In this document: one piece after another, positions 1,227-61,680 of the stretch
How the letters are laid out: each line of letters opens with the position of its first letter
How positions within the stretch are numbered: the stretch's first letter is position 1
NCBI GenBank assembly: GCA_903813345.2
Contig: CAIIXF020000001.1
Location: 3,100,001 to 3,164,000 of the forward strand
Direction: 5' to 3'
DNA from: Owenia fusiformis
Lineage: Eukaryota; Annelida; Polychaeta; Sabellida; Oweniidae
DNA: 64,000 nucleotides
The notes under the pieces: model-generated
The model's database searches: none
What the model was told of the DNA's origin: nothing
What the model saw: only the letters and a program-made list of their open reading frames with translations
Program-made: the position numbers and the translations under genes

Positions 1227-1653
1227 TTAAGTGTTAAATTATGGGACTTTGAAAACTTAATCACATAATCATCATTTGAGATTTAGAAACGTTTAAAACA
1301 ATGTAATATTGCTGCAACGAATTTTGAGACAAATTAATAGCTTGTTATAATTTCATAATGTAGGCCTTTACTAAAAAATAAGTACTGCATTGATCCTCGA
1401 GAACTTTTTGCTTTTTAATTCCCTTTGATTTCAGATTAACCTAAACATTTCTGAGTAAGTCCCTGGTAGATCATAATGCAGTGTCTGCAAAGTGACCTTC
1501 TTAAAGTTTATAAATTATGCTGTTTGACAAAGTGATCAATATATGCCAGAGCTAATGGCATAATCAAGAGCCAGGTGCTTATTTTGCTGACCTTACTTAC
1601 CAGTGCGTCGCATAAAATAAATACAGAGATCATTATATCAGACAAAAGACAAA

Positions 1654-1659
1654 TTTATT
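1654..1659 (-). promoter_or_regulatory. Candidate polyadenylation signal for the distal last exon
   Basis: AATAAA on the minus strand about 175 nt past the TAG of the distal chitin-binding exon, followed by a T-rich stretch. Spacing suits a short 3'UTR. AT-rich DNA makes chance hexamers common. Confidence 0.4.
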
Positions 1660-1831
1660 CCGATGAATTATATCAATAACAATTTCATAATGAAAGAAAC
1701 GTCTGAAATGAATTAAATCAATGTTTAATTCACCTAGATGTACAAGTAAATACAGTAGAAGTGTTATCCCAGACATGTGTGTAATTGGTGGTCGGCCCTA
1801 TATATTTGGTCAGTCGATCCTATAGGTCCTA

Positions 1832-2007
1832 CTAACATGGTACTGGTACCATAATTGCGGGTAAACATCTCTGTTCCTCAGCACTAAACAGCAATCCCCG
1901 CTGACACTCCTTGTGTGTGATCCTGTTGTTAAAACACTCAATATATTTTCTACAAGTTGGGTCTGTTGTGTCTGCGATCAAAATCTTTGAATTGGAACAT
2001 GAGATAC
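1832..2007 (-). CDS. Gene A exon 23, distal copy: type-2 chitin-binding domain and stop
   Basis: The paralogous last exon: TTTCAG acceptor, two phase bases, 57 codons and TAG. Spacing is C-x14-C-x5-C-x9-C-x12-C-x9-C, with two extra residues (VP) before the last cysteine compared with the proximal copy. Segments are [19 protein letters not shown] and CLPAIMVP. Unlike the proximal copy it keeps its own downstream flank, with an AATAAA about 175 nt past the stop, so it is probably the ancestral terminal exon. Both copies are open with changed residues, suggesting neither is a fresh pseudogene. Confidence 0.72.
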
Positions 2008-5000
2008 CTGAAAATATATGTAAAAGCAGTCATTATCAGAGACATGTAGACATGCAGAGTGACATGAATATAACTCACATTGTGAGGCCATATATTATCA
2101 GCGTTGTACTTAAAATACGTTAACCTGGTAGACGACAGGCGTTGGTTGCATTCGCGAATACAAGCTTATATTTGGACTCTTTCAAATTCGGATCCATATT
2201 TGGGTTTCATATAAAATCCTAGATACCCGTTCAATTCTTCAACCCTAATGTCTGTGGAGGGGTCAATCCGACCCCCCTCGCTCTCGAATTTTTCAGTGCA
2301 ACCTTGTCCTCCTTCATTTTTTAGCTTGAGCCACTACTACAAGACACTTTTTGCGTAAAAACCAAGGTGATTGGGGTAGAGAGGTAAAGTTATGATAGTT
2401 GGAACTTGAAGCAGGTTTTAAACATATAATGATAAAATTGAAATTCATAAAATATTGATTGTTACTTTGTTTCTTATTCTCTTGAAAATACCAGAAAGAA
2501 GATTATTGCTTTGTTTGATAGGCTTAGAAAATAATTTAGCATATTGCATTTTCTTTCCAGTATGCTTTATTTCATGAAAATCAAGCCGAAACAACTGGTC
2601 GTGAAACGCGTTCTCTTCACGAATTTGCGAGAAAAACGGATTTTTGAAATACTACTCCATGAATACCTTTGAATTGCTTTGGCATATTACTAAAGGTTTA
2701 TGCACACTACGGTATCAGAATTATGATGATACCTTTTCCCAACCTTTAGATATAATTTTTTATCCCCCGTACCCCCAATTTTTCAATTTCGCTATTTCAA
2801 TGTTTGTGCCGTTGCCAGGTGGTTGCTAGGCAACATTATGGACGGAAATTATATTGAAACAATACCAATCCATACATTCATACATCTGCATACTAAACCA
2901 CTGATTGGCATTTGTTGTAAATCTTGAAATATACAGGGTGGTCCAAAAAAATTGGAACATTTGATAATTGAACTCAAAATCGTTATTTTTTCTCTACAAT
3001 GCACCAGAATTTTACTGAGTATTTGTTCAATCACTTATTTATCTGATGTAAAGTTTATAGGTGCAAACAACAAAGTTAATCCATTAAACTAGAAAATGTT
3101 TGATATGACCCCTTTTCTCCCGAATTACAAGTTGAAGTCTGGGACTCAGTTTTGAAATGATCCATTCACTTTGCTGTTCGTTTGATTTTGTCCAAGCCAT
3201 CTTGATTAAAATTCAGCTTAAACAAACGGACCGAACAAACTACTTATATGTTAGCCTTGGAAGATCAAATATATGAACATATTCAACATTTCTTTACCCA
3301 AATTGATGGGTATCAAGCATATTTTGATGGCTATTGTTAGATATATTACTGATTGAATATTCTCCAGGGCAGTCTGTTTTGACTGGTAAATGAACCCCCT
3401 CTCCTTTCTTGTTCTAATATGAAATTCAATAATATTCATTGAATATATCAATATATGTATATCAATATCATAAAGCAGTTTCCCAGAACACAAATGATAT
3501 ATTATATTATGTGTGCTTAGAGGTGGTCTTTAATAAAGCCTTGTAAATAACTAGTCAGTTTCCCCTCTACTGAAAATTGGGAACAATGATTTTGTCAGTT
3601 TAGTAGCTGTATGGGTTATGCAACCACTCACCTCTGACACGTTCGTTCTTTCCTACTCTTAAATAAAAATAATGATTTGGGGTATTCTTAAGTTGACAAT
3701 AGTTTTCCAATAAACCATAGATGTTAATACCTCATGTCAACCAAATATGATTTTATAAAATGTGTATAACAATCAACATGTTCATGAAAGTTTTGAAATA
3801 AAGAATACTTGAAAAAGTAGCTGCGAAATTGACAAGTGTATATTTAAGAATAGGGGGTCATATCAAACATTGACTAGTTTAATGCATTAACTTTGTGGAT
3901 TGCACCTATAAACTTTACATCAGAGAGATAAGTGACTGAACTATGCTCAGTGAAATTTTGATGCATTTTAGAAGAAAAATAAAGGTTTTGTGTTCAATTA
4001 ACAAATGTTCCAATTTTTGGACCACCCTGTATATATGCTAAAGACAATATGGTTAAAGAAAGCTTTGTCTCCATCTGATCTGATCTTCGTTGAATTTTTA
4101 AAAAGTCTCGACCTGGAAATGAATTTCAACGCCATCAAAAGTAAAGCCATTGAATTCGCGAATCTCAAAAATGTGAATTCAAAGTTCAACTAATCGTCAC
4201 GGACGGAGAGACGCCTAGAAGATTACACATGCTCACTGCTGCGTGAGCCAATACTAGCTTTTAACGAGTAGGAAACAAACCATTCATATCTCCCTTGAAG
4301 TTTTACAAACTTTCAAATGTATACTAAGTTTATTAGATTCCTCCGTTAAGACAACGAACTTCATCGGATGGAACTTCAAAAAATCGGTTAAGACCAGGTT
4401 CCGTTTAGGTAATAATAGTGAGGTATCATATCAATGATTCTGTTTGACCTATTTGTTCGCAAATTTAAAGGTCCTACTAACATGGTACCATGATTGCAAG
4501 TAAACATCTCTTATCCTCAGCACTATACCGCAATCCCCACTGACACTCCCTATGTGTGATCTTATTGTTAAAACACTCAATATATTTTCTACAAGTTGGG
4601 TCTGTTGTGTCTGCGATTGAAACCTTTGATTCGGAGCATTGGATACCTGAAAATATATGTTAAAGCAGTCATTATCAGAGACATGTAGACATGCAGAGTG
4701 ACATGAATATAACTCACATTGTGAGCCGAAAAAACTGGTCGTGAAACGCGTTTTCTTCACGAATTTGCGAGAAAAACGAATTTTTGAAATACTACTCCAT
4801 GAATACCTTTGAATTGTTTTGGCATATTCCTAAAGGTTTATGCACACTACGGTATCAGAATTATGATGATACCTTTTTCCAAACTTTAGATATAATTTTT
4901 TATCCCCCGTACCCCCAATTTTTCAATTTCGCTATTTCAATGTTTGTGCCGTTGCCAGGTGGTTGCTAGGCAACATTATGGACGGAAATTATATTGAAAC

Positions 5001-8000
5001 AATACCAATCCATACATTCATACATCTGCATACTAAATCACTGATTGGCATTTGTTGTAAATCTTGAAATATACAGGGTGGTCCAAAAAAAATTGGAACG
5101 TTTGATAATTGAACTCAAAAAATTTTCTCTACAATGCACAAGAATTTTACTGAGTATTTGTTCAATCACTTATTTATCTGATGTAAAGTTTATAGGTGCA
5201 AACAACAAAGTTAATCCATTAAACTAGAAAATGTTTGATATGACCCCTTTTCTCCTGAATCACAAGTTGAAGCCTGGGACTCAGTTTTGAAATGATTCAT
5301 TCACTTTGCTGTTCGTTTGATTTTGTCCAAGCAATCTTGATTAAAAATTCAGCTTGAACAAACGGACCGCACAAACTACTTATATGTTTGCCTTGGAAGA
5401 TCAAATATATAAACATATTCAACATTTCTTTACCCAAATTAATGGGTATCAAGCATATTTTGATGGCTATTGTTGGATATATTACTGATTGAATATTCTC
5501 CAGAAAGAGGTCAGGGCAGTCTGTTTTGACTGGTAAATGAACCCCCTCCCCTTTCTTGTTCTAATATGAAATTCAATAATATTCATTGAATATATCAATA
5601 TATGTGTATCAATATCATAAAGGAGTTTCCCAGAACACAAATGATATATTATATTATGTGTGCTTAGAGGTGGTCTTTAATAAAGCCTTGTAAATAACTA
5701 GTCAGTTTCCCCTCTACTGAAAATTGGAAACAATGATTTTGTCAGTTTAGTAGCTGTATGGGTTATGCAACCACGCACCTCTGACATGTTCGTTCTTTCC
5801 TACTCTTAAATAAAAATAATGATTTGGGGTATTATTAAGTTGACAATAGTTTTCCAATAAACCATAGATGTTAATACCTCATGTCAACCAAATATGATTT
5901 TATAAAATGTGTATAGCAATCAACATGTTCATGAAAGTTTTGAAATAAAGAATACTTGAAAAAGTAGCTGCGAAATTGACAAGTGTATATTTAAGAATAG
6001 GGGGTCATATCAAACATTGACTAGTTTAATGCATTAACTTTGTGGATTGCACCTATAAACTTTACATCAGAGAGATAAGTGACTGAACTATGCTCAGTGA
6101 AATTTTGATGCATTTTAGAGGAAAAATAAAGGTTTTGTGTTCAATTAACAAATGTTCCAATTTTTTGGACCACCCTGTATATATGCTAAAGACAATATGG
6201 TTAAAGAAAGCTTTATCTCCATCTGATCTGATCTTCGTTGAATTTTTAAAAAGTCTCAGACCTGGAAATGAATTTCAAGGCCACAAAAAGTAAAGCCATT
6301 GAATTCGCGAATCTCAAAAATGTGAATTCAAAGTTCAACTAATCGTCACGGACGGAGAGACGCCTAGAATATTACACATGCTCACTGCTGCGTGAGCCAA
6401 TACTAGCTTTTAACGATTAGGAAACAAACCATTCATATCTCCCTTGAAGTTTTACAAACTTTCAAATGTATATTAAGTTTATTAGATTCCTCCGTTAAGA
6501 CAACGAACTTCATCGGATGGAACTTCAAAAAATCGGTTAAGACCAGGTTCCGTTTAGGTAATAATAGTGAGGTATCATATCAATGATTCTGTTTGAACTA
6601 TTTGTTCGCAAATTTAAAACTGCTATTCCTATTAAGTCATATCCACATTCATTTTATGTATAACCAAAGTGCCTAATTAACATGCAATCACCATTACCTA
6701 ATTTCGCCCGTTCCGGGAAATTGCCGATTTTGACGTAAAAATACAATTCACATTATGACTACAGGGTCTTGGATCATTTATTTTTATATTTAATGTCTTT
6801 GTATTAAACTTTTGTACTCTAAAAAATAAAAAAATGAGGATTTGAAAAACCGACGATGCTACATGTATCGTTTATTCATCAAAATACCAATCAGGAAAAA
6901 ACGGATTTTTCTAGTCAAACTCAACCCAAAAACGGAAATATTAATGAAAATTGAACGTGGATTAAACCAAAAATATTTTTATACAACCCGGAGAACCCGG
7001 ATTTTTTTAAATCAGCCCGGAATTTCAAAAATTCTTAAGTTGAGAAGTATGAAATTTTGAAAAATATATAAATTACTTATTATAGTATCGATTTACGGTA
7101 ACAAGTTTATATCGGGAATCTGTTGTCGCGAAATTTGCAACAATCCTAGCTATCTATCAATAGACTTCTTTACGTAAATGAACATACTTAAACATTTATC
7201 ATAGTGTTGCACGATCCTTTGATGAAAAAAACTAATTTACTTTTAAAATTTTCACAAATGGCTTCCTCTCCAGTCCATTTTCCTTCTTTTGTACAAATCC
7301 TTACTGCGTCTCCTTTGAGGACATATCCAGGGTTACACCTATATTTCATGTTCATACCAATATAGCCTCCAAAGCCAGTCACTATTCCATTGCTGGGGTT
7401 CTTCAGGGTCGGACACTTCTTAGATTCTGAAAATGACAATTGTGAAGATTTTGCTTTTGCATGAATTTGAAGTATGATGACACTACAGGGTGTTCCAAAA
7501 GTAACAGGACTGGTGCTGGCATTTTGTCGAATATGCACCAATCGTCTTCAAAATTTTACATAATGTACTTCCATGTATTGTAACTAAGACTGCCAAGTTT
7601 TGACAAAAATTATGAAACTGGGGTAGAGTTATGGTTGCTATGGCAACATGACATCACAATACCCGGGGCAACATTCCACACAGAAAGTTACAGAGACTTT
7701 AAGCATTTTGTACATCCCATAGCAAAGTTAGAATCCAACAACTGGTGGGAATTACATTTGCTAAATACATTATTTGATATTCCTCTTTGGTCAGTCCAAG
7801 AGTAGCACTCAGTATCCATGACTCAAACACATGAGTGAACCCATTTGATGACATGTCACGCAGGGTCGATAGGACAACTTGGAGAAGGTCATTCTCATCT
7901 TTAAAGGTCTTACCGCGCTGATTAGCATTCCATTACCCATATAAAAGTAAAAATTAGATATTGCATGATCAGAAGAGTATGATGCATGGTCTTAGATCTC

Positions 8001-11000
8001 AAGATCTAGCTCCGCTATAGCTGCAGTGGTCTTTAATGCTGACTTGCGGGCAGACGCCTTATCAAGGTGGATGACTGGCTTCAAATTGGGTCTTTTCAAA
8101 AACTCAACAATGAATTGTGCAGACTGTTATACATAATAATATTTTAGGAAATTGAATAAATATTATTATTTTGAAATCATGCTTGAATCTGAGTTGTATA
8201 GCAACCCCATAACTATAAAGCAACTAATAAAACAAACAAGAACTTTTGTATTGTAATAGGCGAATTAGATACTTTCTTCAGTCATATAAAAATGTTAGAT
8301 ATTACATTTTCATGAAAAAGTTGCCCCGGGTATTGTGATGTCACGTTACTATAGTAACCATAACTTTACCCGCATTTTATCATTTTTTCTGAAACTTTGC
8401 AATTTTAGTTGCACTACTTCAAAGTACAATTTGTGAGAATTTGAACATACTTGGTGCAGAATTGACAAAATGCCAGCACCAGTCCTGTTACTTTTGGAAC
8501 ACCATGTATATGAAGTATACAGTATGAAGTATGACGATACAAATGAAAAGTTGAAAGTTGGACATTATAACTAATTTTCATTGAATCCTGGTGATCAGAC
8601 CAATAATCAGTCATCTGGAAAAAAAGTAATTCGAATTACATCAAGTGACATTCAAACGGTAACATTTTAAGCCACATTCGGGCAGTGGGTGAAGAGTAAA
8701 TACAATTGTATAAGGTATTTTCATGAATCCTCTGAGCTTGGAATTTTATTATCTTAAAAAAGAATAAAATCAGTTTATGCTGTGGCTTAAGACTCACGGT
8801 AATCTGATTGTTTGCTACATTTAGGAGGAACGCCTGAGTAATCGCCACCTAATTTGCACCACCTAGATCTTGAGCCTTCAAGGGTCTCCCCCTCCTTGCA
8901 ATTATAGCGTACTACAGAATTCAAGTATCCATTGGATACTACCTCCTCAATAACTCCAGATGGAGTCCTGGGTGGAACACACACTGAAAATAATTATGTT
9001 CCATCATATACTAAGGGTAAATCCTGTCGAGGCTGTAGAATCTGGGAAGGTAAAATGCTGAAAATTATTTACAATACACCAGAAAACATTTGGTCATTTT
9101 GGAGTTATTACACCAAAAGTAGAGACTTTTATTAATTTCGTCAAAATGTCGCATTTGTTACAAAATGGAAAATTTTGATTACAGACCAATCAAAATAAAA
9201 TGTTTCCCTATATTTAACAAATAAATTATAATCAAAACCAATGAAATTCTATGTTAGGCTTTTTAGGAATGTGCATGCAAAATGTGGTGACTTAACTCTT
9301 AAAAGTGAAGAAATGAGAGTAAATTTACAGACTTGGGACTTGTGTTGTCTCGGCTACTAACTAAGTTCATTAAATGGTAAAATCCATTCCTTTCATGAAC
9401 AGGACGGGTGTAAGATAAATTCAGTTCAGTTAAGCCAGATTACAAGAATTCTGAGCAATTTTTGGGGAATACGAAGGTCAGTGAAAGTCCTCCATCATAT
9501 CCATCCATCATGAAACCTAGATCAGTATGTAACTAGTTGACTGAGAAATCATAACCATTATTAAAGGTGGTGCAAAGTAAGCATTCAAAGTTGTACTGAC
9601 ACAGTGAATGTTCAAAACATTATTAATGTTCAAGTTCAAATTTGTTCTATTTTCTTCATAATTGTGCACATTTTTCCATATGGTCCTTTTTGCTGCAACC
9701 CTCTCCCGGGAAATTGGATCCCAAAAGCCTCTTGAACAGCAATGAAACTTATAGTTTTTTGATACCATTTATCCAGTTTTTTCAGTCAGTCTTTGTCAGT
9801 TGAACCATGTTTTGCCTTATGTGTACATCTACAGGGTGTCAAATAAGTCCCGTCCCCCCTCTACAGGCAACACCAAGATATTTGGTACCAAGTGTGATAT
9901 ATCATTGGAAAGGTCTTCCAAAGTTATACGTTGATTGGCATATATCTGACACATGTCAATCAATCTCACAAATTTTTACATTGTATCAATTGAGGTGACC
10001 ACAGGCCTAGAAACATGGCAATTTTGGCGTATTTGGCAGGATTTTAAGAATCGGGTATAAGAAAGGTCAAAGGACCAAAATATGACTTAATATGTATATG
10101 GCAATGAATTGAACCAATTGCTGGATAGGGTTAGATGTGCAGAAAATAGAGATGCAAGGAAAGTGGTGAAAACCTTTTTATGTAACAAGTGGAATGCGAA
10201 AAAGATTAACTTTTTGACGTTTTTCACTGACACAGTGAATGTTCAAAACATTATTAATGTTCAAGTTCAAATTTGTTCCATTTTCTTCATAATTGTGCAC
10301 ATTTTTCCATATGGTCCTTTTTGCTGCAACCCTCTCCCAGGAAATTGGATCCCAAAAGCCTCTTGAACAGCAATGAAACTTATAGTTTTTTGATACCATT
10401 TAACCAGTTTTTTCAGTCAGTCTTTGTCAGTTGAACCATGTTTTGCCTTATGTGTACATCTACAGTGTGTCAAATAAGTCCCGTCCCCCTCTACAGGCAA
10501 CACCAAGATATTTGGTACCAAGTGTGATATATCACTGGAAAGGTCTTCCAAAGTTACGTTGATTGGCATATATGTGACACATGTCAATCAATCTCACAAA
10601 TTTTTACATTGTATCAATTGAGGTGACCACAGGCCTAGAAACATGGCAATTTGGCGTATTTGGCAGGATTTTAAGAATCGGGTATAAGAAAGGTCAAAGG
10701 ACCAAAATATGACTTAATTTGTATATGGCAATGAATTGAACCAATTGCTGGATAGGGTTAGATGTGCAGAAAATAGAGATGCAAGGAAAGTGGTGAAAAC
10801 CTTTTTATGTAACAAGTGGAATGCGAAAAAGATTAACTTTTTGACGTTTTTCAGAGGTCATATCCTTGTCATTTTGACGCAAAAAGCTGATTAAATGAGG
10901 GCATGTTAACAATAAAGGACATCATGAAAATATAGGTAAATTTCATCCAAAATACTTGAAAGTTGGTGTGTTGACATAACTTTGGATGATCTTTCCAATG

Positions 11001-20000: not shown

Positions 20001-23000
20001 AGCTGTATTTAAATATGATATTGATTATTCCCATTATTCCCATTTCGCCCCTTCCCACTTCGCCCCTTCCCATTTTGCCTCTCATTTATTCCCATTTTGC
20101 CCCTTTCCCAATACGCCCTTTTCCCATCTCGCCCCTTCCCATTTTGCCCCTTTGCCATTTCACCCCTTTCCCATGTCCCATATCGCCCCTTTCCCTTATC
20201 GCCCCTTCCCATTTCGCCCCTTCCCATGTCGCCCCTTCCCATTTCGCCCATTCCCAGTTTAGATCAATAACAGGTTTTATTCAAATATTATTCAATTATT
20301 CAGGGGCAAAATGGGAAGGGTGAAATGGGAATAAATGAGGGGCGAAATGGGAAAGAGGACAATTGGGAAGGGGCGAAGGGGGAATGATAGGAGGCTGTGA
20401 TATCTCACGAAATGGGAAGGGGGCTGAATGGGACAGGGGTGAAATGGAAGAGGGGCAAAATGGGTAAGGGGCAATTTGGGAAAGGGGCGAAATGGGAAGG
20501 GAGAAAAGTGGGAAGGGGCGAAATGGGAAGACACCGGATTTTATCTGTATTTAATCAATATTGGAGCTGTACTAGAGCGGTATTAAATATCCCTGTCCAA
20601 TACCGATGCATCGGTATTTGATCGGTATTTGATCGGTACTTCGTCGGTACTTCATCGGTATTGGAGTTTCACTAAAGCCATATTAAATAGCATAGTCCTA
20701 TACCGGTGCATCGTTATTAGAGCTATATAAGATCGGTACTAGATCGGTACTAGGTCGGTATTTGGTCGGTATTTGGTTAAAGCTGATTGGCTGACAGGAC
20801 TTCTAAATTAGCTCATTTGCATGATAAATTTTAGAAGGATTTCATCGGTATTAGTTGGGTATTAGACAACTACATTAGGTCGGTATAAGGTCGGCATTTA
20901 ATATGCAACGTCCATTGGATTTTTTCACTTGGGAATGTCTAAATACCGAGACAAATTCGTGTTGTCTTATTTTAATGACGGGTTTACGTACAATAGGGTG
21001 GCTCAAAATAGTTTTTTTTTGGAAATGTTATGCTCCCTACGTGAATCGAGTTGCATTTTGGGGTAAATATCACCTGTGATTTTTTTCAAATTTTTTAGTC
21101 AACTTTTAGGGGTCCCCCACAGCCTCTAAAGTTTGCCCATAGGCTTAACATTAGTGGGTGTTGCCCAAAATTGTACTTTGTACAAGCTTTTTTTCTAGTG
21201 ATTTATTTATGTTGTTTGAAGAAAACCAACATTGTATATGATATGATTAGATGTTTAAATCATCATATTACACTGTTTCATCATGTTAATTAACTTATAT
21301 AAAAGGTTATACTTACAATGTCCTATTAACAAAATATCAGGTACATTCGACCAGTATAATTATTTGAACAAGTACAGTTTTAGAGAATCATGTCTCATAT
21401 ATGATTTGGTATTATCATTATAATGGTTTAAACTGTAAAAGGTATATTCATTCTTGACATTTAATGTTTTAAACATGGTTCAGATCAGCTTTTCTTATAT
21501 GTGACAATCTTCCTCTCTGATCTGAGTGTACAACACATACATTGTCACGGTGCGCCGCATCACGGGTCATTTGAGAGCATTCCTGTACCAGCTTCACTGC
21601 TTGTTCAGCTGGATCATTAACAGAATGCAGGTCTTGACAGAAATTCTATCACCAGTACGACCCTGATATAGCAAACGCAGCTCTTCACAGTGTAAGACAC
21701 CATCTATGGTACCTCTGCCCTGAATTAGTTGTTTTGTCCCTATTCGACGAATACATTGCCAGAGAGGAGAAGCAGGAGCTTGCTAAAGCACTGCTCAACA
21801 TCCCACGGCCTGTACAATTTGCAACTGGCAAACCAGTACAGCCTGACTACAACCCAGTTGCTGCTCACTTAGGCAATGTTAAACCATCACTAGCAATGTT
21901 TGTAACTGAGAGATCATGGCTCTTATTTCACCTCCTGGAATCAGGTCCAATTATATGGCTTCAAGAGAATCCAGCTGCATGGCATACATATCCAACTTAT
22001 ATTCAAACCCAGAATTTTTGAAGATTGTCACATATAAGAAAAGCTGATCTGAACCATGTTTAAAACATTAAATGTCAAGAATGAATATACCTTTTACAGT
22101 TTTTAGTTTTTATGGTTCATTTATTGAAATCATATATATATAATACATAAACAGGGCCTAGGCGAAAGCATTATTGGCCCTGTGAGAATACAACATACAA
22201 ATTATTACAGATGGCTTTTTGTTGAAACAACTGATTAAATGTTATAAATTGATAATTCAAATAATTTCCATTATTTTACAGAGAAAGTTAGTAAAAATCT
22301 TAAATACACAACCTTTGATTTTGTTATTCACTAAATTATCTCCAAACAAAAGTGTATTGGTCTTTTGTTCTAAAGTGCATCCAATTAAAAAGAAATGGTT
22401 CAGTTCTGGCATCACCCTAAGCTCCCCCCAAAGTTCTTCTCTTTCTTTAACTAACAGCGGGCAATTGAAGATAAGGTGTTTTGAAGTTTGTTCTCTGTAG
22501 CCACATAAGCATTTTGGACTTTCTACATCTCTAAAATTATGTAAGAAAAAATGGCCAGAGAAAATAAAATCACATCTAATACGATTTAAGAATATTTCAC
22601 TCTTTCGTAATAGTTCTAACTGAGATGTAGGTAATGGTAAATTTTTATCTTTAAGATGAGTTTTGACACTTCTCTTAAAACTAGCAAAACTTTTACTTTC
22701 TTTTTGATCAGTTGGGAGCTTTTCCCATAAACGTATTGCTCTAGTAACTGGGGATTTGGAAAAGGAGCCAATTGGCTTTGGGGCAGTAAAATGTCTAATC
22801 CTTCTAAGGTTCACATTTTGTACCGGATTTCTATGCTGGTCAAAAATTCTTTGAAGGTATGAGGGGACAGTCTTGTTTTTAACCTGGTACATTAACTTTA
22901 AATATTTTTCATCTGTTCTAGTAGGCAGTTCATTCCAATTCAATGATTTAAATAATTTAGTTTTTGAGGTTCCTTGGATACACCCACTTATTAATAAGGC

Positions 23001-26000
23001 AGCTCTATAATGCACCTGATCAAGTTTAGCAAGGTCATATTTAGTCGCTTTTTCAAATAAAATACTTCCATATTCCATTTTGGGGAGTATAAATGACAGA
23101 TACATTTTTTTCTAAATGTTTTGATCTTATTTTGTTTTTTAGAGCTTTCAAAGGATTTAACATTGTGTTACATTTATCAATAGTTTCTAGTATATGAGGC
23201 CTAAAAGATAAGTGTTCATCTAATATTATTCCTAAGTGTTTGTGGTCACTTGATCTGTTAATTTTTTCATTGCTTAAAAAGACAGGCGGGTGTTGAAGGT
23301 ATTTCCTTCTTGATCCCTTAAAAATAATTTCTACACTTTTTGAGGGTTTAAAAATTGACTTCCATTTAAGGGACCATTCTGAAAGTTTATCTATGTCAGA
23401 TTGAAAATTTCTGTGGAGATCAAAAATATTTTTGTTTCTGTCACAAGGAAAAAAGATGGAGCTGTCGTCAGCATAAAGATATAATTGGCTATGATTAAGA
23501 ACCTCATTAAGGTCATTTATGTACAGGAGGAAGCAAAGTGGTCCAATTATTGATCCTTGAGGTATTGAACTGTTGATAAAAGCATCTGGGGAACGTTCTG
23601 AGAACTCCCCATTTACTTTGACTTGGAGACATCTATTTGTCAAGTAAGACTTAATCAGGTTAATAATGGTATCAGAAAAACCATATGATTTTAACTTTTT
23701 TAACAGCAAATAATGCGGAACAGCGTCATACGCAGATTCTATATCTAAAAAATTCCTCTGACGTCACAGTTATTATCTATTTGCTCATCAATCATGTTTA
23801 CTATTGTTATTAATTGTTTTTCAGTACTATGACCCGGAAGAAACCCGGATTGATTTTGATAGATCAGATTGTTTTCAATGACATATTTGAACATATTGTT
23901 GTATATCAATCGTTCAAATATTTTTGAAACATTGTTTAACAGAGTAATTGGTCTGTAATTTTTGGGGTCACATTTGGAACCTTTATTTTTGAAAATTGGA
24001 ACGACAGTTCCTAGTTTCCAGGAACTTGGAAACGTGTTAAATTCTATAACTTTTTTGAAAAGATCAAATAATGGTTGGTCTATACTGTCGCAACACATTT
24101 TCAACATTTTATTTGTTATTCCGTCTGGTCCACCTTGCTTGGTAGTATTAAGGTCACACAAAATTTTATTAACATCTTGTTTTGAAAAGTCAATACTTTC
24201 TAAGATTTGATCTGTTTTTGATGGAATATTTGGAGAGTTAAGTTCATCAAAATTGTGATGGAATTTGGTCAGAAATTGTTGCAAAAGTAAATCTGCATTT
24301 TCTTTGTTGTTTTTTGCCAAAATGTCCGTTTTTGTCAACATAGGAATATCTGAACAAAACTTTTTACCAAGTAATTTCTTGATTGCGATCCAATAAAATT
24401 TACTATTTGATGAGTTTGCTTCCAAGTTAGTACAAATAGATTCATGATAGGACAATTTGGCTTTTGTGATTGCATTACTAACTACATCTGATTGGATTTT
24501 GAATTTTTCATAATTTTCAGTTGTGTGGTCAGTTTTTAGTTTCCTATAGAGCTTATCACGTTTATTAATTGAACTCTTGACTTCCTTTGTAAGCCAAGGC
24601 ATATCTTTGCTTTTTAAAACTTTTATTTTCCTGGGAATATGATCACTAAATATTGATAAAACAGTTGATGTAAAAATCTCAGTCATATTATCTATGTCTG
24701 TTAAAGCAAAGATGTTTTCCCAGTTATACTGAGATATTGCTCTATTAAGATGAAACACATTGCAATCCTGATATTGCCAAGTTGTTCTAACAGTATTTGA
24801 ATCAGTGTTTGCAGTTTTGAGATTTAGTTTGCTGTAAATGCAAGAATGGTCAGATCCTATAGGCGATTTAGTACAAGTTTCCAAGACATATCCTGGAGAG
24901 TCACAGAAAAATAAGTCCAAGCATGAACGACTATTTTTCACACATCTAGTTGGTTCTTTCACTAATTGAGAGAGAGAGTTCTCGACTGAAATATCATAAA
25001 GCCTTGTTCCTTCAGTGGTATTTATGTCTTTTTCCCACCAGTGGGTACTACGAGCATTAAAATCACCTGTACAGAATATCCCATCTGATTTAACTTTAGT
25101 CGCCTTATTTATATTATTGTTAAGGTAATTAAAATAGTTGTCGCGATTTCTGGCATTTTGTGATGGCGACCGATAGAATGTTCCATACAAAAAGGACTTA
25201 TTTTCAACAGTGACTTCAATCCACCGGCACTCGATATTTGGATCATTTAAATCATCTCTGACTTTAAATTTCAAAGAGTCCTTTATATAGACAATAATGC
25301 CACGACCTTTAGAATCATACAGTGACTGATCTAATTTATGAAAGCCTATTATATCATATTTTGATATATCTAATTTGTTACCAGTTTCACACAGACTCAC
25401 AATTGAAATATTTTCTTGTTTAACCAATAACTTAAGACTTTCAAACCTGTTTCCATTGTCGGCTGAGAGACTGTTAATATTTGTAAACAGAATATTCACA
25501 TTTTCGGTATAATTGTTTGGGCCTGGATTTGGTTTTATATCAAATGCTAATAGGAGAAGTTGTCTTAACACATCTTCATGAAATGCTAGATTTAGAAAAA
25601 TTGAACTTCCTGGTATTAATAGAAAACAACTCATTGTGAAAACAAACATGCATATAGACCTTGGATTAATTTGATGTTTTGAAGGTAATTGTACAACCCA
25701 GAGTGCTATCAATGGTGTTACAAAAGATAACATTTTTGCAATTATAAAGATGGCAAATAGTATTTCCAAATGCATATTTAAAAGCAAGTGTTGAAAGAAG
25801 CTACATATTAAGATTATAAGAGGAAGATTACAACAATTGCTGGAAATATGCAACATACTAATAATGAGCCAATTTGAAAATAATGTGTTCACTCTAGGGC
25901 TGTTTCCTATTTTGTTGACATGGTTAAATCCAAGATAATTAAATGCACCTATTCTTCCCCGCCAAAGGGTTAATTCAATGCACATCAAAGATGTAGTTTG

Positions 26001-29000
26001 TGGGAACCCAGGATAATGCCAGACTGAAGTAATTTTCTACATGGATGCTTTTACAGTTTAAACCATTATAATGACAATACCAAATCATATATGAGACATG
26101 ATTCTCTAAAACTGTACTTGTTCAAATAATTATACTGGTCGAATGTACCTGATATTTTGTTAATAGGATATTGTAAGTATAACCTTTTATATAAGTTCAC
26201 ATGATGAAACAGAGTTATATTATGATTTAAACATCTAATCATATCATATACAATGTTGGTTTTCTTCAAACAACATAAATAAATCACTAGAAAAAAAGCT
26301 TCTATAAAGTACGATTTTGGGCGACGCCCACTAATGTTAAACCTATGGGCAAACTTCAAAGGCTGTGGGGGACCCCTAAAAGTTTACTAAAAAATTTGAA
26401 AAAAAGCACACGTCATATTTACCCCAAAATGCAACTCGATTCACGTAGGGAGCATAACATTTCCAAAAAAAATTATTTTGAGCCACCCTAACGTACAAGG
26501 AGATTACTCATCTTCTTGGCTTTCCACAGTCTTCATTTTGATTTCAGATTTATACCGAATGGCTTAGCATATGTTTCTCCAATTTTGAAGAGCTCTGTAA
26601 TAAGGTCATGACACACACAATTTCCACCTCGGTGGAAATTAATTTAACCGCGGTGAAAATAATTTCCATCGCGGTGAAAATTATTTTTTAAGCGTAGTAA
26701 ATAGTTTCTACCGAGGTGGAAATTAATTTCCAAAGCAGTGAAAATAATTTCCACCGCGGTGAAAATAATTTCCACCGGTGGAAATAATTTCCACCGGTGG
26801 AAATTATTTTTACGCGCGGTGGAAATTTTTTTCACTGCTTTGGAAATAGCTTCTACCGAGGTGGAAATAATTTTCACCAAGGTGAAAATTCATGTAAAAT
26901 TTTAAATTAAAAAAATAAATTATTCGAGGAAATTTTTTAATTAAAACTAAAATTCTTAATTACGAAAAAAATTCATGTCCCTTATAAGGCTTCGTAGATT
27001 TCAATAATGTTGGTATTGTTGTAAATCTTTATTCAATACAATCTTCAAAAACGTATTTTACTTTTTAAAATAGTTGGTCAACAACGGTCAAATCGACTTA
27101 GGGTGTACTTTAACAAACTCACGCCCGGTGATCGTACAAAAATGATGGAGGGGGGATTAGGCGATTTCTGCAAGAAAACTCAACAAATTTGGAAGATTTA
27201 TTTTTCAATTGTCACAACACTTATGACATTGCTCACTTTTTAAAGTTAGTTTCCATGCGTTATACAAAAAATAATCGAAATAAATTAATTTTGGATGGAG
27301 GGGGGATCGGATGGAGGGGGGATTTATATATCTTTACGATGGAACAAATTCACAAGAACTCGTGTATTTGAAAAAACCAAATTCAGTAGCCCAGTAAGAA
27401 ACTGGATATCATATCTCTGGAGAATGAAAAATGGGAAAATTTGGAGTCATAAGAATAAATTCAAGTAGCATGTCTTATCATGTATTATATACACGTGATC
27501 CCACCCCTCCATCCGATCCCCCCTCCATCCCAAATTAATACATTTCGATTATTTTTTGTATAACGCATGAAAACTAACTCTAATAGACCATTGTTGCCCG
27601 ATTTATAGCAAAAACATTGACTTTTGCACGTTGGTGATGATGCGCCTTTTTTAATAGATCTCATATCTTAGAAGGGTATCAGTTCAAAAAAATACGAGAT
27701 GACCTAACATATTTTGCCATACATTGCGCCTATTCATTTGGCAATTCAGTTGCAAATTTTCTCTTGAAAAAATAAATCTTCCATTTGTTGAGTCTTCTTG
27801 CAGAAATCGCCTAATCCCCCCCTCCATCATTTTTTTACGATCACCGGGCGTGAAACTGTCAATTTCAAAATGATTGTCGGTGCCATAAACGCTACGCTTC
27901 TTAAAATAATATTGTATCTTTCAAATAAAACTAAGATCAAGGTAAACGCTTTTCTATAGCTGAACCTATGCACTTTCAAAGATAGCAGGTATCACGAAAT
28001 ACCATTGAGACCAATGTAACGCGTTATTGAATTATCAACAATTTTAAGTTCAACTTGTTTTGTCCTTAGCATTCATATTTTTAGATGTGCAATAAATACC
28101 AACCATCTATTATCTACTTTATGTCATTGTTTATGTTATGTAAAATAACCAAAAGCTGAATAAAGACTATTTTAAAAGAAAAAAAAAATACCAACCAGTG
28201 ATTTAGTGAGAAAATAGATCAATGCTCGACGTTGTGTTACTTCAATATACTTCAGGTCTATGCTTTGCCTAATGCCTACGGTATACATCAAGCAGTTTTT
28301 CTCAAATTCGTGAAAAGAACGCAATTCGTGAATATAGGCGATTAACTGTTTTTACCTTTAAAAATTCATAACATAGTCAATAGTGGCTCAATGTTCATGA
28401 AATAAAGCATATTGAAAAAAATAATTAAGTAGTCAAAATGATTATTTGTCAAACATAGCAATAACCATCACTGCATATTCTAGAGTATGGGAAACAAGGT
28501 AAGTATCAATATTTTATGAATTTCAAATTTATTGGCATCAAATTCTAACTATCATAACTTTGCCCTTCTACCCGCTCCAGCGAAAAAAATAACGGAGACA
28601 CAATAAAAATGCAAAAAGTACTATTAACAATCGAGGAGGTCCCCCTTGCAGTCATTGGGGTACGGTTAGGCTACTCTGTTGTATGGGCCTTATTACCATC
28701 TGGTATTCACATCAAATGATGGACTTACATGTACGTGCATTCATTAAAGAAATTGCACATTTAATTAAATACTATTCTTAAATAGAATTTATATTTCTTA
28801 CTCGCAGAGCAGGTTGTCCCTCCAAATCCTGGTACACAAGTGCAGCTAAACGACCCATCTGTATTTTCACATTTTGCACCATTCAGACACCTTCTAAGAA
28901 GACATTCATTCACATCTACAATATAAAGATCACATTGGTCAAATCATTTTGATATTAAATTGAAATTTGTAAGGAAGTTGACTCAATGTTTCTAACAATG

Positions 29001-36293: not shown

Positions 36294-36800
36294 CACAGCA
36301 AAAAATGTGAATCAAACCACTGAATCCTGGAGTCAGGATTCATACAGGATTCATATGCACATATGAATCCTGTATGAATCCTGCCTCCAGGATTCATACA
36401 GGATTCGCTGTTTAAATAGTTTACAAATGAATCCTGCCTTCAGGAATCATACAGGATTCATATGCAATATAGTTTACAAATGAATCCAGCCTTCAGGATT
36501 CGTACAGGATTCATATAGAAGGTAGTTTGCAAATGAATCCTGCCTTCAGGAATCATACAGGATTCATATGCAATATAGTTTACAAATGAATCCAGCCTTC
36601 AGGATTCGTACAGGATTCATATAGAAGGTAGTTTGCAAATGAATCCTGCCTTCAGGAATCATACAGGATTCATATGCAATATAGTTTACAAATGAATCCA
36701 GCCTCCAGGAATCATACAGGATTCATATGCAATATAGTTTACAAATGAATCCTGCCTTCCTGAAGGCAGGATTCATTTGCAAACTACCTTCTATATGAAT
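36294..36800 (+). repeat. Left terminal repeat with 53-bp tandem units
   Basis: Beyond the CACAG tip, units of about 53 bp alternate between type A (CCTGCCTTCAGGAATCATAC...TGCAATATAGTTTACAAA) and type B (CCAGCCTTCAGGATTCGTAC...TAGAAGGTAGTTTGCAAA), a 106-bp dimer. Each unit holds internal inverted GAATCCTG motifs. The innermost unit (36,745-36,800) is inverted. Confidence 0.8.
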
Positions 36801-39800
36801 CCTTACATCGTACGTATCTGGATTTCGTTCATAATTGATTAATCTGTTAATGCGTTCCTCTAAGTAAATGAAACAATCATCACATCGTGTTTATAAGTGT
36901 AATTCAAGGGCGTATAATCTAACATGTCTAATGCTACTCATTTCATGGTATTACTTTCCGATCATTTGATAAAATAGAATACAATCAACATGTGGAAATC
37001 ACGGATGACGGGAAAAACAATATTGTATAAATAGAATATATTTTAATAAGAGATTCGTAATGTAAGAGATTCGATATTTAACAGATATTTAGAATGAATT
37101 GCGACATTATATTCCAAATTCATGAATAAACTGTACGTATCTGGATTTCGTTCATAATTGTTTAATGGTTCCTCATAGATAGTAATAAAGTCATCACATC
37201 GTGTTCATTAGTGTTAATTCGAGGTTGGATAATGTTTTTATAATATGATGTTATAATTTTACATTTTATTTGTGTGTCTGAGTGAGGCTAAATTGAAAGT
37301 AAAACCTGTATAATCAGACGGGCAAATCACGATGAGGACAAATAATTATTTAAATTAGTAAGATAAGTCTGTACATGTAGATTGTTCGTTGAAGTTGGAC
37401 CGTCGGTGACTTTTATTCCTAGATTTCGTATCCCTCTCAAACAAATAAGTCAAAGCCAAATATAGTTGAACTGTTTTCGGGATTATTATTCATTTGTTGT
37501 AATACAGATTGACTTATAGACTGATATTGTAATGGGTTGTGCTTGGGATTCACAGAATTATTCTATGATAGTCTCAGGATATATTGAAATGCGGATGTTT
37601 ACATTAAAGATCTTGCTTTCAAACAAAAATATTGAAGTACTAAGATCGGATATTAGCGTACCCCAGTGGAAAAGAATCAAAAGATATTCCAATTTAACGC
37701 ACTGCACAATAATTTGTCATTTTGGAAATTCGTCAATATGACCTTACCATTTTGATCTTAATAATTTAAAATTTAAACAAGCGCTACCCCCCCCCCCCCC
37801 CCAGAACTAGCCTTCCCGGTAAAGCCAATACGACAGATATCTAAGGAAAGTTTCATTTTTATTCTTGATTTCTCTGACTCGGAATAGTTGAAATGATAAA
37901 CATAAATTGCAATTATTATTACTTTGCTCTTTCATTTTGCTCAGTCATGATCAACGCCTTCCTTAAATTTTCTGTCAGATCATCGATCCCAGACTTCAGC
38001 AAATATTCCAATCATATTTTGCGTTTTATCGTCTTTCCCAAAAGCTATACGAATATGGTACTACAACTACTTAATGACAGTGGTTTATCGTTATTTTTGC
38101 AAATATGGATGTTTACACTGCTTGAATCTTATTCTAGGAAGTTTTATAGAGACGGGACTTCCTTTTCACAATGCAATTATATCTGTTTTGTAGGTTCCCG
38201 TGGGTAAGATACACACAAGAACAATACGGCCCATCCAAAAGGGACAGATCCGTCAGTGGCGTTCTTCAAATTATAGCCCGTGGAGATATAGTTTATGAAT
38301 CTTGCCTCAAGTGACGTGTTAAATCCCATATTGGGTTTGAGAAAGGGCCCGTATACACAGCCCGATACACAGTTGCTCGATACAAGTGCAAACTATAAAA
38401 TAACCATAATATAACAATTATAGATAAATGTTTGGCATGCATTGTTTCTGTTTAATTGTTAAATTATTTGATAACTTATAATAAGCAGATAAGTTGCTTT
38501 TCAGGTATTAAGCGGCGATTAAGGACTGAAAACCAGCGTCACACATTTCTTCGGATATTCCTCCATAAGCAGATATACCTGTTTGCATGTTTTAATTTTG
38601 ATTTGATTTGATTGTTTGAATTAGATAAAGTCTTTAAAATGTTACTAGTGTTTGGGGGGGGGGGCTGAGATTTCATGTAGGAATTAAAATTAGAATAAGA
38701 TTTAAATACGATCTGTTTTGTTTGCATCGTTGTATAACGTTGATAAAACACAAAGGGCAGCATTGGAATTACAAAATTGTGCGATTCCCTACCTCCCAAA
38801 ATTATTCAAAATTATATTTCTGTCATTCTGATTTCCGTGTCGGGACATTCTGATCTATTAGAGTCTCACTTTATCTAACGCTTTGGTATTCCAAAGGATT
38901 GTACTTGCCCGGGAGTACTTGCTGTATATCACGTCGGGAGATTAAACCTCCTGGATTAAACCAGTGAATGTTCCGATCGTCGTAACATTCGATACACCGA
39001 GAGATTTCCCAGATTCATACATGCATACTGTATATTCAGCAGGAATTTTACATACTTTATCATTCCATTCTTAATATATCGTATAATATTTGTATTCTGT
39101 TTCACAGATTCCCCTTGAAATACAAGGTAGACTAGATGCGAGTAGAAATAATTTTGATTTACGTCATTAAATATTCAAAATTCAGTCAAAGTGATGTCAT
39201 AATTTGAAATCTACATGAAAAAGTACATCTAAAAATACGGTTTCGAAAATTGTTTATCAAATTTGAAAATTACGACAACACGGGCAATATATGGCAGGTT
39301 AAATGAGTCGTCAAGATTATAACACGCCGGTCTTTATGTTACAGTTGATGAAAGTACAATGTCAAAATCTCATGATGATTTCTTCCGACCTGTGTTTACT
39401 GACAAGAGAGGGGTGCGCAGTTGTTGAAGCGAGTATAAACTAAGAAAAATCCAAAGTCCGATAATTAATTAATTGGCATGGATCTGCTAATTGTTTTCGT
39501 TATTGTTACTTGTTCTATCTAGACGGTTTTATCTGCATCGATATGGCTGATTATAAGGCATGAACATTTTTCCCAGTTGTGTTAATTGTTATTCTTTAAT
39601 AAGCGGATTTATATGTTTGAAATATTTATTATCCATTTTTCATTTTGATATACTTTTCAAAGGACTTTTTGTTCTATCTATGTGTTTTGTCTATACTAAT
39701 CTTTAACAGGAGTTAGCTTATTCCATATAGCCTACAATTGATTTTAATTCATAAAGTTTGCTGATAATTGACTTAAGTATGGTAAAGCTCTCGAAGAGAG

Positions 39801-46030: not shown

Positions 46031-46574
46031 TTCGTTTGATTCCTGTATGATTCCTGAAGGCTGGATTCATTTGTAAACTATATTGCATATGAATCCTGCT
46101 TGAATCCTGGCTACAGGATTCATTTGCAAACTACCTTCTATATGAATCCTGTACGAATCCTGAAGGCTGGATTCATTTGTAAACTATATTGCATATGAAT
46201 CCTGTATGATTCCTGAAGGCAGGATTCATTTGCAAACTACCTTCTATATGAATCCTGTACGAATCCCGAAGGCTGGATTCATTTGTAAACTATATTGCAT
46301 ATGAATCCTGTATGATTCCTGAAGGCAGGATTCATTTGCAAACTACCTTCTATATGAATCCTGTACGAATCCTGAAGGCTGGATTCATTTGTAAACTATA
46401 TTGCATATGAATCCTGTATGATTCCTGAAGGCAGGATTCATTTGTAAACTATTTAAACAGCGAATCCTGTATGAATCCTGGAGGCAGGATTCATACAGGA
46501 TTCATATGTGCATATGAATCCTGTATGAATCCTGACTCCAGGATTCAGTGGTTTGATTCACATTTTTTGCTGTG
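46030..46574 (-). repeat. Right terminal repeat with 53-bp tandem units
   Basis: The reverse complement of the left terminal repeat, with the same alternating A and B units and the same CACAG tip. It has slightly more units than the left side. Confidence 0.8.
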
Positions 46575-51417: not shown

Positions 51418-54400
51418 CTGAAACACATTTATATTAAAAGATATATTTGGCCATCACTGAAGAAGTACGGATAATATAACCATAATAGTGTTATGCATTA
51501 TGTAGAATATGTAGGTGAAAGTGGAATACATGTCTATGACCAATTTACATTAAACTAGATGAAACAGCAACTCCAACAGAACATATTTTGATAATTTGTG
51601 GCCATCCACTGGAATTTGATATTATATTTTTTCCAAATAATGGCAGCCATTTTGAAATTCAGCTGCCATGTTCAAATTTCTTCTTGGACAATGAAAATAT
51701 TTTCTTGAGCAGACCTTAGATAAAGTTAGTTATCAAAGATTACGTTTATAACAAAAAGGCAGCCAATTTGAAATTTAAGTGTCATCTTGAACTTTATTTG
51801 ACCCAAATCCAAATAGGATAGGAAGCCGTTATTCAAACTCGATACTCCGACTAGAACTGCTGAGGAAGCTTGAATACTACCAAAATATTCTTAATGGCCA
51901 TCTTTCAATGAAATACTTGGTCCAGAGAGAACCTTATAGAAATATTTTTACTAAATTGTTCCACTGCAGGCAACGGAGTATCGAGTTTGAATAATGGCTG
52001 CCAATCCTCCTTGAACCACATCCGTTCACTGGTATTGAGTAATCATAAATAATGTTTTTTTCACGAAAAATGGCGGCCATTTTAATATTCAGCGGACTTC
52101 TTCAAAATAACTTCTTGAGCAAAGCTCTTGGCATCAGAATATAGAATTTGAACCAAATCCATCAACTAGTACTGAGTTATCTAAGATTACATGTTTTACG
52201 AAAATTGCAGCCATATTGAATTGAGCGCGATATTGAAAATTCCTTCTCGAGTAGAAGTCCTATATCTCATATATAAGGCATAAGCCTATAAAATTTCAAT
52301 CAAATCCGACAACCGGTATTAAAGTTATCGCCTGGACAGACGGACGGACGAACGGACGTACAGACGGATTTCCTATATCCCCCTCGAACGTCATTCCTTG
52401 GTATAATAACCAACCTGCTCTCTGTTCACATGTTCGACCACTCCAGCCCGAAGCACATTTGCATGTAAAACCTGTTTGGGTGGCTATGCATGTTCCTCGA
52501 TTTTTACATGGATTGGGTGAACATTTATTCTGTGTACATGTTGAACCACTCCAGCCCAAAGCACATTTGCATGTGAAACCTGTCCTTGTGGCTGTGCATG
52601 TTCCTCGATTTTTACATGGATTGGGTGAACATTTGTTGGTAGTAATAGCTGCAATAATTTCATACTACAAAATATATTGGTCATCACTGAAGAAGTGGGT
52701 CAAAAGTACCATTCTAGAGCTATGTGGTAATGTAGAATAATTATGTAGGATAAAACTAGAATAAATGTCAAATACCAAATTTACATGACATGACCAACCT
52801 GCTCTCTGGACACATGTTGGGCCTTTCCAGGCTGGAGCGCATTTGCATGTAAAACCTGTTCGTGTGGCTGTGCATGTACCACGATTTTTACATGGATTGG
52901 GAGAACATTTGTTGGCGGTAATAGCTGCAATACATTTATACTACAAAATATGTTGGCCATCATTAAATAAGTGAGTTAAAATTACCATTCAAGGGCCATG
53001 CCTTAATGTAGAATATGTAGGATAAAACTAGAATACATGTCAATGACCAATTAACATTACATGACCAACCTGCTCTCTGGACACATGTTGGACCTTTCCA
53101 GCCTGTAGCGCATTTGCATGTAAAACCTGTTCGTGTGGCTGCGCATATTCCACGATTTTTACATGGATTGGGAGAACATTTGTTGGTGGTAATAGCTGCA
53201 ATACATTTATACTACAAAATATGTTGGCCATCATTAAATAAGTGAGTTAAAATTACCATTCAAGGGCCATGCCTTAATGTAGAATATGTAGGATAAAACT
53301 AGAATACATGTCAATGACCAATTTACATTACATGACCAACCTGCTCTCTGGACACATGTTGGACCTTTCCAGCCTGTAGCGCATTTGCATGTAAAACCTG
53401 TTCGTGTGGCTGTGCATATTCCACGATTTTTACATGGATTGGGAGAACATTTGTTGGTAGTAATAGCTGCAATACATATATACAAAAAATATATCGGTCA
53501 TCATTAAATAAGTGAGTTAAAATTACCATTCTAGGGCCATGCCTCAATGTACAATATGTAGGATAAAACTAGAATACATGTCAATGACCAATTTACATTA
53601 CATGACCAACCTGCTCTCTGGACACATGTTGGACCTTTCCAGCCTGTAGCGCATTTGCATGCAAAACCTGTTTGGGTGGCTGTGCATGTTCCTCGATTTT
53701 TACATGGATTGGGTGAACATTTGTTCTGTGTACATGTTGAACCAGTCCAGGCCAAAGCGCATTTGCATGTAAAACCTGTTCGTGTGGCTGTACATATTCC
53801 ACGATTTTTACATGGATTGGGAGAACATTTGTTGGTGGTAATAGCTGCAATACATTTATACTACAAAATATGTTGGCCATCATTAAATATATAAGTGAGT
53901 TAAAATTACCATTCTAGGGCCATGCCTTAATGTAGAATATGTAGGATAAAACTAGAATACATGTCAATGACCAATTTACATTAAATGAACAACCTGCTCT
54001 CTGGACACATGTTGGACCTTTCCAGCCTGTAGCGCATTTGCATGTAAAACCTATTCGTGTGGCTGTACATGTTCCACGATTTTTACATGGATTGGATGAG
54101 CATTTGTTAGTAGTAATAACTTTCTGTTCACATGTTCGACCACTCCAGCCCGAAGCACATTCACATGTAAAACCCGTTCGTATTGCTGTGCATGTACCAC
54201 GATTGTTACATGGATTGGGAGAACATTTGTTGGTAGTAATAGCTGCAATACATATATACAAAATATATCGGTCATCATTGAAGAAGTGAGTTAAAATTAC
54301 AATTCTAGAGCTATGGATCAAAAGTACAATAGTACAATAACGTCATTCTGAAGGGCAATATAGTGAAATATTGGACCGAGGGCCATATTTACTAACTGAT

Positions 54401-56999: not shown

Positions 57000-57740
57000 G
57001 AATGACTATAGCTGACCCCTATAGTTTCTAGATCCATCCCTCTATAGTGATATTTATGGTTTTATAGTGTGGAACTAAGATGTAAAACATAATTTAGATG
57101 GGTTTTAAGGAAGTTAAAGGTTTTAAACAAGTCCAAAATTTGAAAAATTGTAAATATAAGGTTTCAAATTTACATATTCCAGGTATAGCCATGGCGGACC
57201 CCTATAGTTTCTAGATCCATCCCTCTATGATGATATTTATGGTTTTGCCATGTGGAACTAATATGTAAAACACAATTTAGATGGGTTTTAAGAAAGTGTA
57301 AGGTTTTAAACAAGTCCAAAATATGAAAAATTGTGAATATAAGGTTTCAAATTTACGAATTTCAGGTATAGCCACGGCTGACCCTTATGATTTTTACATC
57401 CATACCTCTATGATTAAATATACAGTTTTAGAGTGTGGGACTAAGATTTAACATATCCAAAATGAATTTTAAGGAAGTTTAAGGTTTTAAACAAGTCCAA
57501 AATTTGAAGAATTGTAAATGTTAGGTTTCAAATTTATGAATTTCAAGTATAGCCAAAGATGACCCTTATGGTTTTTACATCTATACCTCAGGGATGAAAT
57601 ATATAGTTTTAAGAGTATTTAATTAAAATGTAAAAGATACCTAAGATGAGTTTGAAGGAAGTTCAAGGTTTTAAACAAGTGCAAAATTTGAAAAATTGAT
57701 CTCAAAATTGGTCTCAAATTCACGCTATTCAGGTACAGAG
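57000..57740 (+). repeat. 183-bp tandem repeats, left arm
   Basis: Four copies, starting with GACCCCTATAGTTTCTAG-type sequence at about 57,014, 57,197, 57,380 and 57,561, growing more divergent inward. Each includes GGTTTTAAACAAGTCCAAAA. Confidence 0.85.
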
Positions 57741-60039: not shown

Positions 60040-60787
60040 AAAGGAGGACTGAAAGTATCGCAACAGATTTAGGACAGTTACATGTTGGATTTTTGCTATT
60101 TTCTGAGTATTTAAGGAGGTGCATATGTTAGGCCAATGCATTTCCTCCAGGAAAAGCACTCATAGAGTACCCTTTGCATTCGTTTGACTTCACTTCTTAA
60201 AAGAGAGCTGCGTCTGTAGTTTAACTAGACTCTGCAGGCAGGGTACTCATAGAGATGATAAAATAATTTCTATTTGAGACAGGGTGCAAACATAACCAAC
60301 CCACATGCATCAATATGTTGTGTTTTGACACAGTTAACCCTTTAAAGAAATAATGCATTCCATCAGGGGTTTAAAAGATATCAAATATGGGTGACCAAAA
60401 TTAAGCTCAAAGTAATGGAGCACATGAGTTTTCCCTATGGGAAAATAACAGGAAAATATTGTTTTCTGCTTTATCTAAAAGAAATTTATTATTCCTTTTT
60501 ATGGGTTAACTATGTCTCAAAATCGCAACATATTGATGCAACAAAAATTTAAAAAGCAGGGGTGAAAGGGCGTGAAAATCAGGACAACATTTCCGAAAAA
60601 ACATGTTGTTGGATTGTTTGCACCTTCGATGTCTCAAAGTCCAAACTATTTTATCATCTCTGAGAGTTCTTTTCCTGTAGGTAATGCAATGGCCTATCAT
60701 ATGCACCTGGTTAAGTCCTCAGGAAACAGACGAAATCTAACATATGACTGTCTGAAATATGTTGCGATACTTTCCGTGCTCCTTTGA
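60040..60787. repeat. Inner inverted repeat of the 5.8-kb element
   Basis: 60,040-60,330 and about 60,580-60,787 are diverged inverted copies (AAAGTATCGCAACA, GGTGCATATG and GATGATAAAATA segments pair). The left arm carries the 78-bp insertion described separately; the right arm lacks it. Confidence 0.65.
60168..60245. mobile_element. 78-bp MITE with 9-bp target duplication
   Basis: Ends TACCC and GGGTA, flanked by exact CTCATAGAG at 60,159-60,167 and 60,246-60,254. The inverted partner arm shows the uninterrupted site near 60,655-60,665. A related copy lies near 41,748-41,832. A duplication of 8-9 bp fits hAT or Mutator-type elements. Confidence 0.7.
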
Positions 60788-60839
60788 GACCTGATATTTC
60801 TCAATTTTTCAAACATTGCACTTGTTAAAATTCTTAAAC

Positions 60840-61680
60840 TTCCTTAAATTCATCTTCGGTATGTTTTACTTCTTAGTTTCACACTCTAAAAATATATGTT
60901 TCATCATAGAGGTATGGATGAAAAAGCCATAAGGGTCATCCATGGCTATACCTAACATTCGTAAATTTGAAACCTTATATTTACAATTTTTAAAATTTTG
61001 GACTTGTTTAAAATCTTTAACTTCCTTAAAAAACATCTAAATTATGTTCTACATCTTTAGTTCCATACTACAAAACCATAAATATCACCAAAGAGGGATG
61101 GATTTAGAAACTATAGGGGTCGGCCATGGCTATACCTTGAATTCGTAAATTTGAAACCTTATATTTACAATTTTTCAAATTTTGGACTTGTTTAAAACCT
61201 TTAACTTCCTTAAAACCCATCTAAACTATGTTTTACATCATAGAGCCACACTATAAAACCAAAAATATCATCATAGAGGGATGGATCTAGAACCTATAGG
61301 GGTCAGCCATGGCTATACCTGGGATTCGTAAATATGAAACCTTATATTTACAATTTTTCAAATTTTGGACTTGTTTAAAACCTTTAACTTCCTTAAAACC
61401 CATCTAAATTATGTTTTACTTCTTAGTTTCACACTATAAAACCATAAATATCATCATAGAGGGATGGATCTAGAAACTAAAGGGGTCAGCCATGGCTATA
61501 CCTGGAATTCGTAAATTTGAAACCTTATATTTACAATTTTTCAAATTTTGGACTTGTTTAAAACCTTTAACTTCCTTAAAACCCATCTAAATTATGTTTT
61601 ACATCTTAGTTTCACACAATAAAACCATAAATATCATCATAGAGGGATGGATCTAGAAATTATAAGGGTCAGCTATAGTC
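60840..61680 (-). repeat. 183-bp tandem repeats, right arm
   Basis: About five copies of the same unit in opposite orientation to the left arm, again with the outermost copies most alike. Confidence 0.85.

Follow-up and report, generated by a model that had tools for sequence, protein, structure and literature searches.

We considered a stretch of 64,000 nt from the annelid Owenia fusiformis (GenBank assembly GCA_903813345.2, contig CAIIXF020000001.1, positions 3,100,001 to 3,164,000 of the forward strand), hereafter the window, in which a minus-strand gene of animal type, with EGF-like, Sushi and CBM_14 exons, ends in two copies of its last coding exon. As the favoured explanation we took a real tandem duplication of this exon and of part of the last intron, which would provide the gene with two alternative last exons, and we put our confidence in it slightly short of even. 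All positions below are those of the window.

Precisely, duplication unit A (1825..4469) and duplication unit B (4470..6618) form a direct repeat, gapless and with clean ends, in a window that does not contain any N, and each of them spans the last coding exon as well as some of the last intron. The non-coding parts of the two units are 97.9% identical, 41 of the 1964 aligned bases being different (gaps were not counted). A stretch of 499 bp (2085..2583) is present in A and absent from B, so that the intron before exon B lacks it from about 77 nt before the acceptor. The match between A and a related repeat (28573-28295) runs 4 nt beyond the edge of this stretch, and another one, of 30 bases (E 9e-5), is found further on. 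From these two matches the repeat seems to cross the edge, which suggests, on modest evidence, that the stretch was lost from B; an insertion in A was disfavoured on the same ground. Both units also hold the same inverted-repeat element (2936..4033 in A, with CAGGGTGG ends and TA on both flanks, and 5076..6181 in B), which we take to be mariner-like only by its resemblance. We infer that the duplication is real in the animal.

The terminal coding exons are A (1832..2007, minus strand) and B (4477..4646, minus strand), the latter being the first reached by a transcript, and each of them contains six cysteines and ends with a TAG stop. The last intron starts at a Sushi exon (7241..7426, minus strand, start set by eye), which has a phase-1 donor at 7241 and the base A as its last letter; exons A and B open with GT, giving AGT (Ser) at the junction, and both are in frame. 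The acceptor ATATTTTCAG|GTATC is found alike at the two exons, and the acceptors are nearly identical. Both exons scored above the curated Pfam cut-off for CBM_14 (PF01607; 22.1 bits), with 36.9 bits for A and 30.4 bits for B, and their six-cysteine spacing fits the peritrophin pattern. They are read as CBM_14 domains, and chitin binding is predicted for them. The two products would differ by 12 amino acid substitutions and a 2-residue indel, with 9 residues between the last two cysteines in A and 7 in B as a result of a 6-nt difference in repeated GTACCA. Hence the original prediction stands in placing the terminal exon in a tandem duplication with outer limits 1825 and 6618, in its statement that both copies keep acceptor (4646 and 2007), six cysteines and TAG, and in the residue and spacing differences that it had described.

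The best sequence relatives of exon A in the PDB were 8in3 (25 kDa polyphenol-binding protein), with an E value of 4e-8 that sums three weak stretches, each of at least 0.09 when taken alone, and 7bwe (chitin binding beak protein 3), with an E value of 3e-4; both have, however, a different architecture. Both proteins are presumably from molluscs. Solved members of CBM_14 have a beta-sheet fold, whereas the AlphaFold models of A and B (mean pLDDT 66.4 and 66.7, respectively) were mostly helical and too poor to be used. A third CBM_14 copy was not found in the window by tblastn, which gave significant matches for A and B only, the next match having an E value of 2.4. A pattern scan with the Sushi exon and exon A, run on viral contigs only, returned 8 pattern matches, none of which was confirmed.

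The divergence between the two exons is considerably higher than that of the DNA around them. In fact, 20 of 170 exon bases differ against the 41 of 1964 in the non-coding parts (Fisher p 1e-8), about 5 times as much, and both silent and replacement sites are raised. The codon-substitution ratio, proposed as a check with the original prediction, was calculated from 6 changes at 33.7 silent sites and 14 at 134.3 replacement sites, corresponding to a dS of 0.20, a dN of 0.11 and a dN/dS of 0.55. It gave no sign of positive selection, and the silent excess pointed instead to exons older than their flanks. Compared with the non-coding rate, the excess is visible at silent sites alone (p 1e-4) and at replacement sites alone (p 4e-6), without any excess of replacement over silent changes (one-sided p 0.92). 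In a scan of blocks of up to 600 bases the most divergent one was 1853-2002 of A (20/150), which lies entirely within the exon, and its score was reached in 1 of 2000 shuffles. The fall in divergence from the exon to the adjoining intron is sharp. Within the exon there is also a run of 53 identical bases (permutation p 0.007), for which we have no explanation. As a control we compared all the pairs from three of the tandem EGF units lying upstream, where exon versus intron differences were 2/126 versus 4/145, 7/126 versus 21/140 and 7/126 versus 19/140; in each of the pairs, which are not independent, the exons diverged less than the introns, and this is the usual direction. By their divergence, the exon versions A and B look older than the surrounding DNA.

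We also simulated 20 random substitutions with the observed 14:6 ratio of transitions to transversions, in 50000 runs each on A and B. All six cysteines were kept and no stop appeared in 9.2% of the runs on A and 7.6% of those on B, and in 4.1% and 3.2%, respectively, when at most 12 amino acid changes were also required. The simulations mildly favour selection on the exons, without proving it.

According to the favoured explanation, the Sushi exon at 7241 would be spliced to B, followed by cleavage after B, to give one C-terminal CBM_14 domain, or B would be skipped and the same donor spliced to A to give the other one. The choice would be made by competition between splice sites and poly(A) sites, and use of both exons is part of the proposal. 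As an alternative last exon should, each has a stop of its own and an acceptor in matching phase; if both are used, it is plausible from their sequence that they are alternative last exons, and this would require two poly(A) sites. For A there is an AATAAA on the minus strand (1654..1659), 172 nt after its stop and followed by U-rich sequence; the signal kept by A is likely the original one, and the 3′ UTR after exon A is likely the original as well. A strong donor-like site, CTG|GTAAGTAAG (1591-1603, minus strand), was also seen about 230 nt after the stop of A and past its AATAAA; it may be a chance occurrence or point to another exon that lies outside the window. Classic mutually exclusive cassette exons would both be joined to a common downstream exon. 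In the 1.8 kb left past exon A we found no other pattern of EGF, Sushi or CBM_14 type, but such a common exon may be non-coding or lie out of the window.

Two alternative C-termini are the natural reading of two intact exons, as had been predicted. The further claim that the exons are mutually exclusive, because each ends in a stop, was overstated, since a transcript could read through B or splice B to A in frame; exon B could be silent, read through into A, or spliced to A by way of a candidate donor at its stop.

For the older exon versions two routes were considered. Unequal exchange could have set two divergent alleles side by side or, alternatively, conversion could have levelled the introns while selection held the exons apart. 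In the extended form of the first route, A and B would be long-kept alleles of a chitin-recognition domain, a balanced polymorphism with a footprint of about the size of the exon, juxtaposed by unequal exchange between haplotypes, so that each chromosome would now have both and pick one by alternative last-exon use; we consider this form decidedly improbable.

Several observations weigh against the favoured explanation. The nearest poly(A) signal for B, an AATAAA on the minus strand (4329..4334) lying 142 nt after its stop, is within former intron, and an AATAAA is expected about every 700 nt at this base composition, so that the signal of B may be due to chance. The divergence of the flanks is even by segment (1/76, 8/352, 24/1092 and 8/436), and no patchiness was detected in them (p 0.39 for the longest identical run, of 203; p 0.53 by a second measure). 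Such evenness does not speak for repeated conversion and matches what is expected of two haplotypes. It fits equally well a single dated event, being either a duplication between haplotypes whose exons already differed or a join made by the assembler. Finally, the constraint test is weak.

The evenness of the flanks is also what speaks for an assembly artefact, in which the gene would have only one last exon, and its two alleles, A and B, would have been placed one after the other by the assembly. The 2.1% of the flanks would then be ordinary heterozygosity, and the alleles of the exon would be unusually far apart. False haplotype duplications are described as a recognised problem in the part of the source cited here (PMC9516828). 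On the other side, the junction has no N or gap, the unit is short, tandem duplications of similar identity occur in the same stretch of DNA, though they might be artefacts themselves, and the divergence of the exon would remain without explanation. We therefore rated an artefact as doubtful, though it keeps an appreciable share of the probability. Were A and B alleles misjoined by the assembler, the splicing account would fall, whereas the balanced polymorphism would stand.

A real duplication in which B is unused, either because it is skipped or because its transcripts are unstable, was judged unlikely, to nearly the same degree. Here the mRNA would end with A alone, whose poly(A) signal is likely the original one. 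The stop of B is 7 nt from the breakpoint, so that of the 3′ UTR found after A only these 7 nt are present after B. Hence the 3′ UTR of B consists of former intron, the corresponding sequence of the other copy being intronic. The lower CBM_14 score of B and the 499 bp missing close to its acceptor are in line with disuse as well. However, frame, six cysteines, TAG and acceptor are all kept in B despite the 20 substitutions with respect to A, and its acceptor is closer to the donor than that of A.

Fast divergence in place, where positive selection or a mutation burst near the breakpoint altered the exon after the duplication, is consistent with a raised divergence that is restricted to the exon, at most 180 nt from the junction. 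Selection for amino acid change after the duplication fails to explain the pattern, since the rise at silent sites is no smaller than that at replacement sites (6/33.7 versus 14/134.3), and positive selection as the sole cause was rejected for this reason. A mutation burst is made less likely by the far side of the junction, where divergence is not raised (8/436), and by the six cysteines, all of which are kept. We regarded this course of events as very improbable.

Least probable of all is a join of B to A (4482 to 2007) from the candidate donor T|GTTAGT (4476..4482, minus strand), which overlaps the stop of B: the join is in frame, its T|GT restores the last cysteine of B, and two complete six-cysteine CBM_14 domains would follow each other in the product, but the donor is weak (simple score 0.2, with T at +3, a few EGF-exon donors being equally low) and no partner is known for the T|GTTAGT motif in A.

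With regard to the rest of the gene, EGF-like exons extend on the minus strand from about 56 kb to 12.2 kb and are followed by the two Sushi and the two CBM_14 exons. We infer that all of them belong to one gene, which is predicted to encode a secreted, chitin-binding protein. The first Sushi exon lies at 8798..8983 on the minus strand. We tested 27 upstream exons, with ends taken from an exon scan or set by eye: 22 were open and had a length that is a multiple of 3, and 5 failed this frame test, including the second Sushi exon with its start at 7430, which was re-read as 7426. The failures are probably due to wrong acceptors. At least one of the 22 passing exons, the exon 54242-54132, ends before its last cysteine, and three additional EGF candidates were left without placement. 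A Pfam scan of the joined protein of 574 residues listed EGF families and neither Sushi nor CBM_14, both of which were detected when the exons were scanned alone or in short joins.

Other repeats were observed in the window. Another tandem duplication (9595-10853), with units of about 628 bp and 98.3% identity, lies in the interval from the last EGF exon (12196) to the first Sushi exon (8983), and the intron separating the two Sushi exons holds an element (7484-8508) with inverted ends of 192 bp that are 81% complementary. An EGF exon with its intron is repeated in tandem with a period of 271 bp at 52536-53725, and the three units of the control comparison come from this repeat. Three overlapping minus-strand open reading frames at 22260-26036, two of which have endonuclease and/or reverse transcriptase domains, are a LINE-like element split across several frames. 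Tandem arrays of 53 bp occur at 36321-36809 and 46037-46547, with GGATTCAT- and TGAATCC-type motifs in the units of both, and two further arrays, at 57011-57698 and 60783-61673, have a period of 183 bp.

It is known that the end of a protein can be varied through alternative last exons arising by tandem duplication; the duplicated exons of Dscam are internal cassettes. The kind of event is already known, and it is the divergence pattern that is unusual. For the tandem copies of the primate L/M opsins, the passages cited here (gibbon, PMC3213168; review, PMC3924837) report exons more divergent than introns at both silent and replacement sites, as in exons A and B, with dN not significantly greater than dS, and ascribe this to gene conversion together with selection against conversion in exons. 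In contrast to our case of one exon pair in one sequence, with flanks that are not patchy, the opsin work concerned whole genes of known function in population samples. The even flanks and the sharp fall from exon to intron also argue against a plain copy of the opsin conversion account. In Dscam, according to the abstract of PMC3236188, tandem duplicated exons likewise give alternative versions of a domain, in arrays of dozens of exons rather than one pair, and no signs of conversion between paralogous exons are reported there. The insect PpSerpin-1 (PMC12758981) is similar in that exon duplication yields alternative versions of the product, and differs in that roles of the isoforms are reported in the cited part of that work. 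Our literature search for tandem or last exons with chitin-binding, sushi or serpin returned only a venom paper with a passage on duplicated serpin exons, and we make no claim that such cases are absent from print.

Compared with these systems the present case looks young: the flanks are still 98% alike, and the coding exon is the only part that differs more. Should the duplication prove real and both forms be made, one could test how a poly(A) site for a new terminal exon arises out of intron sequence, and how two versions of a binding domain stay distinct amid nearly identical surroundings.

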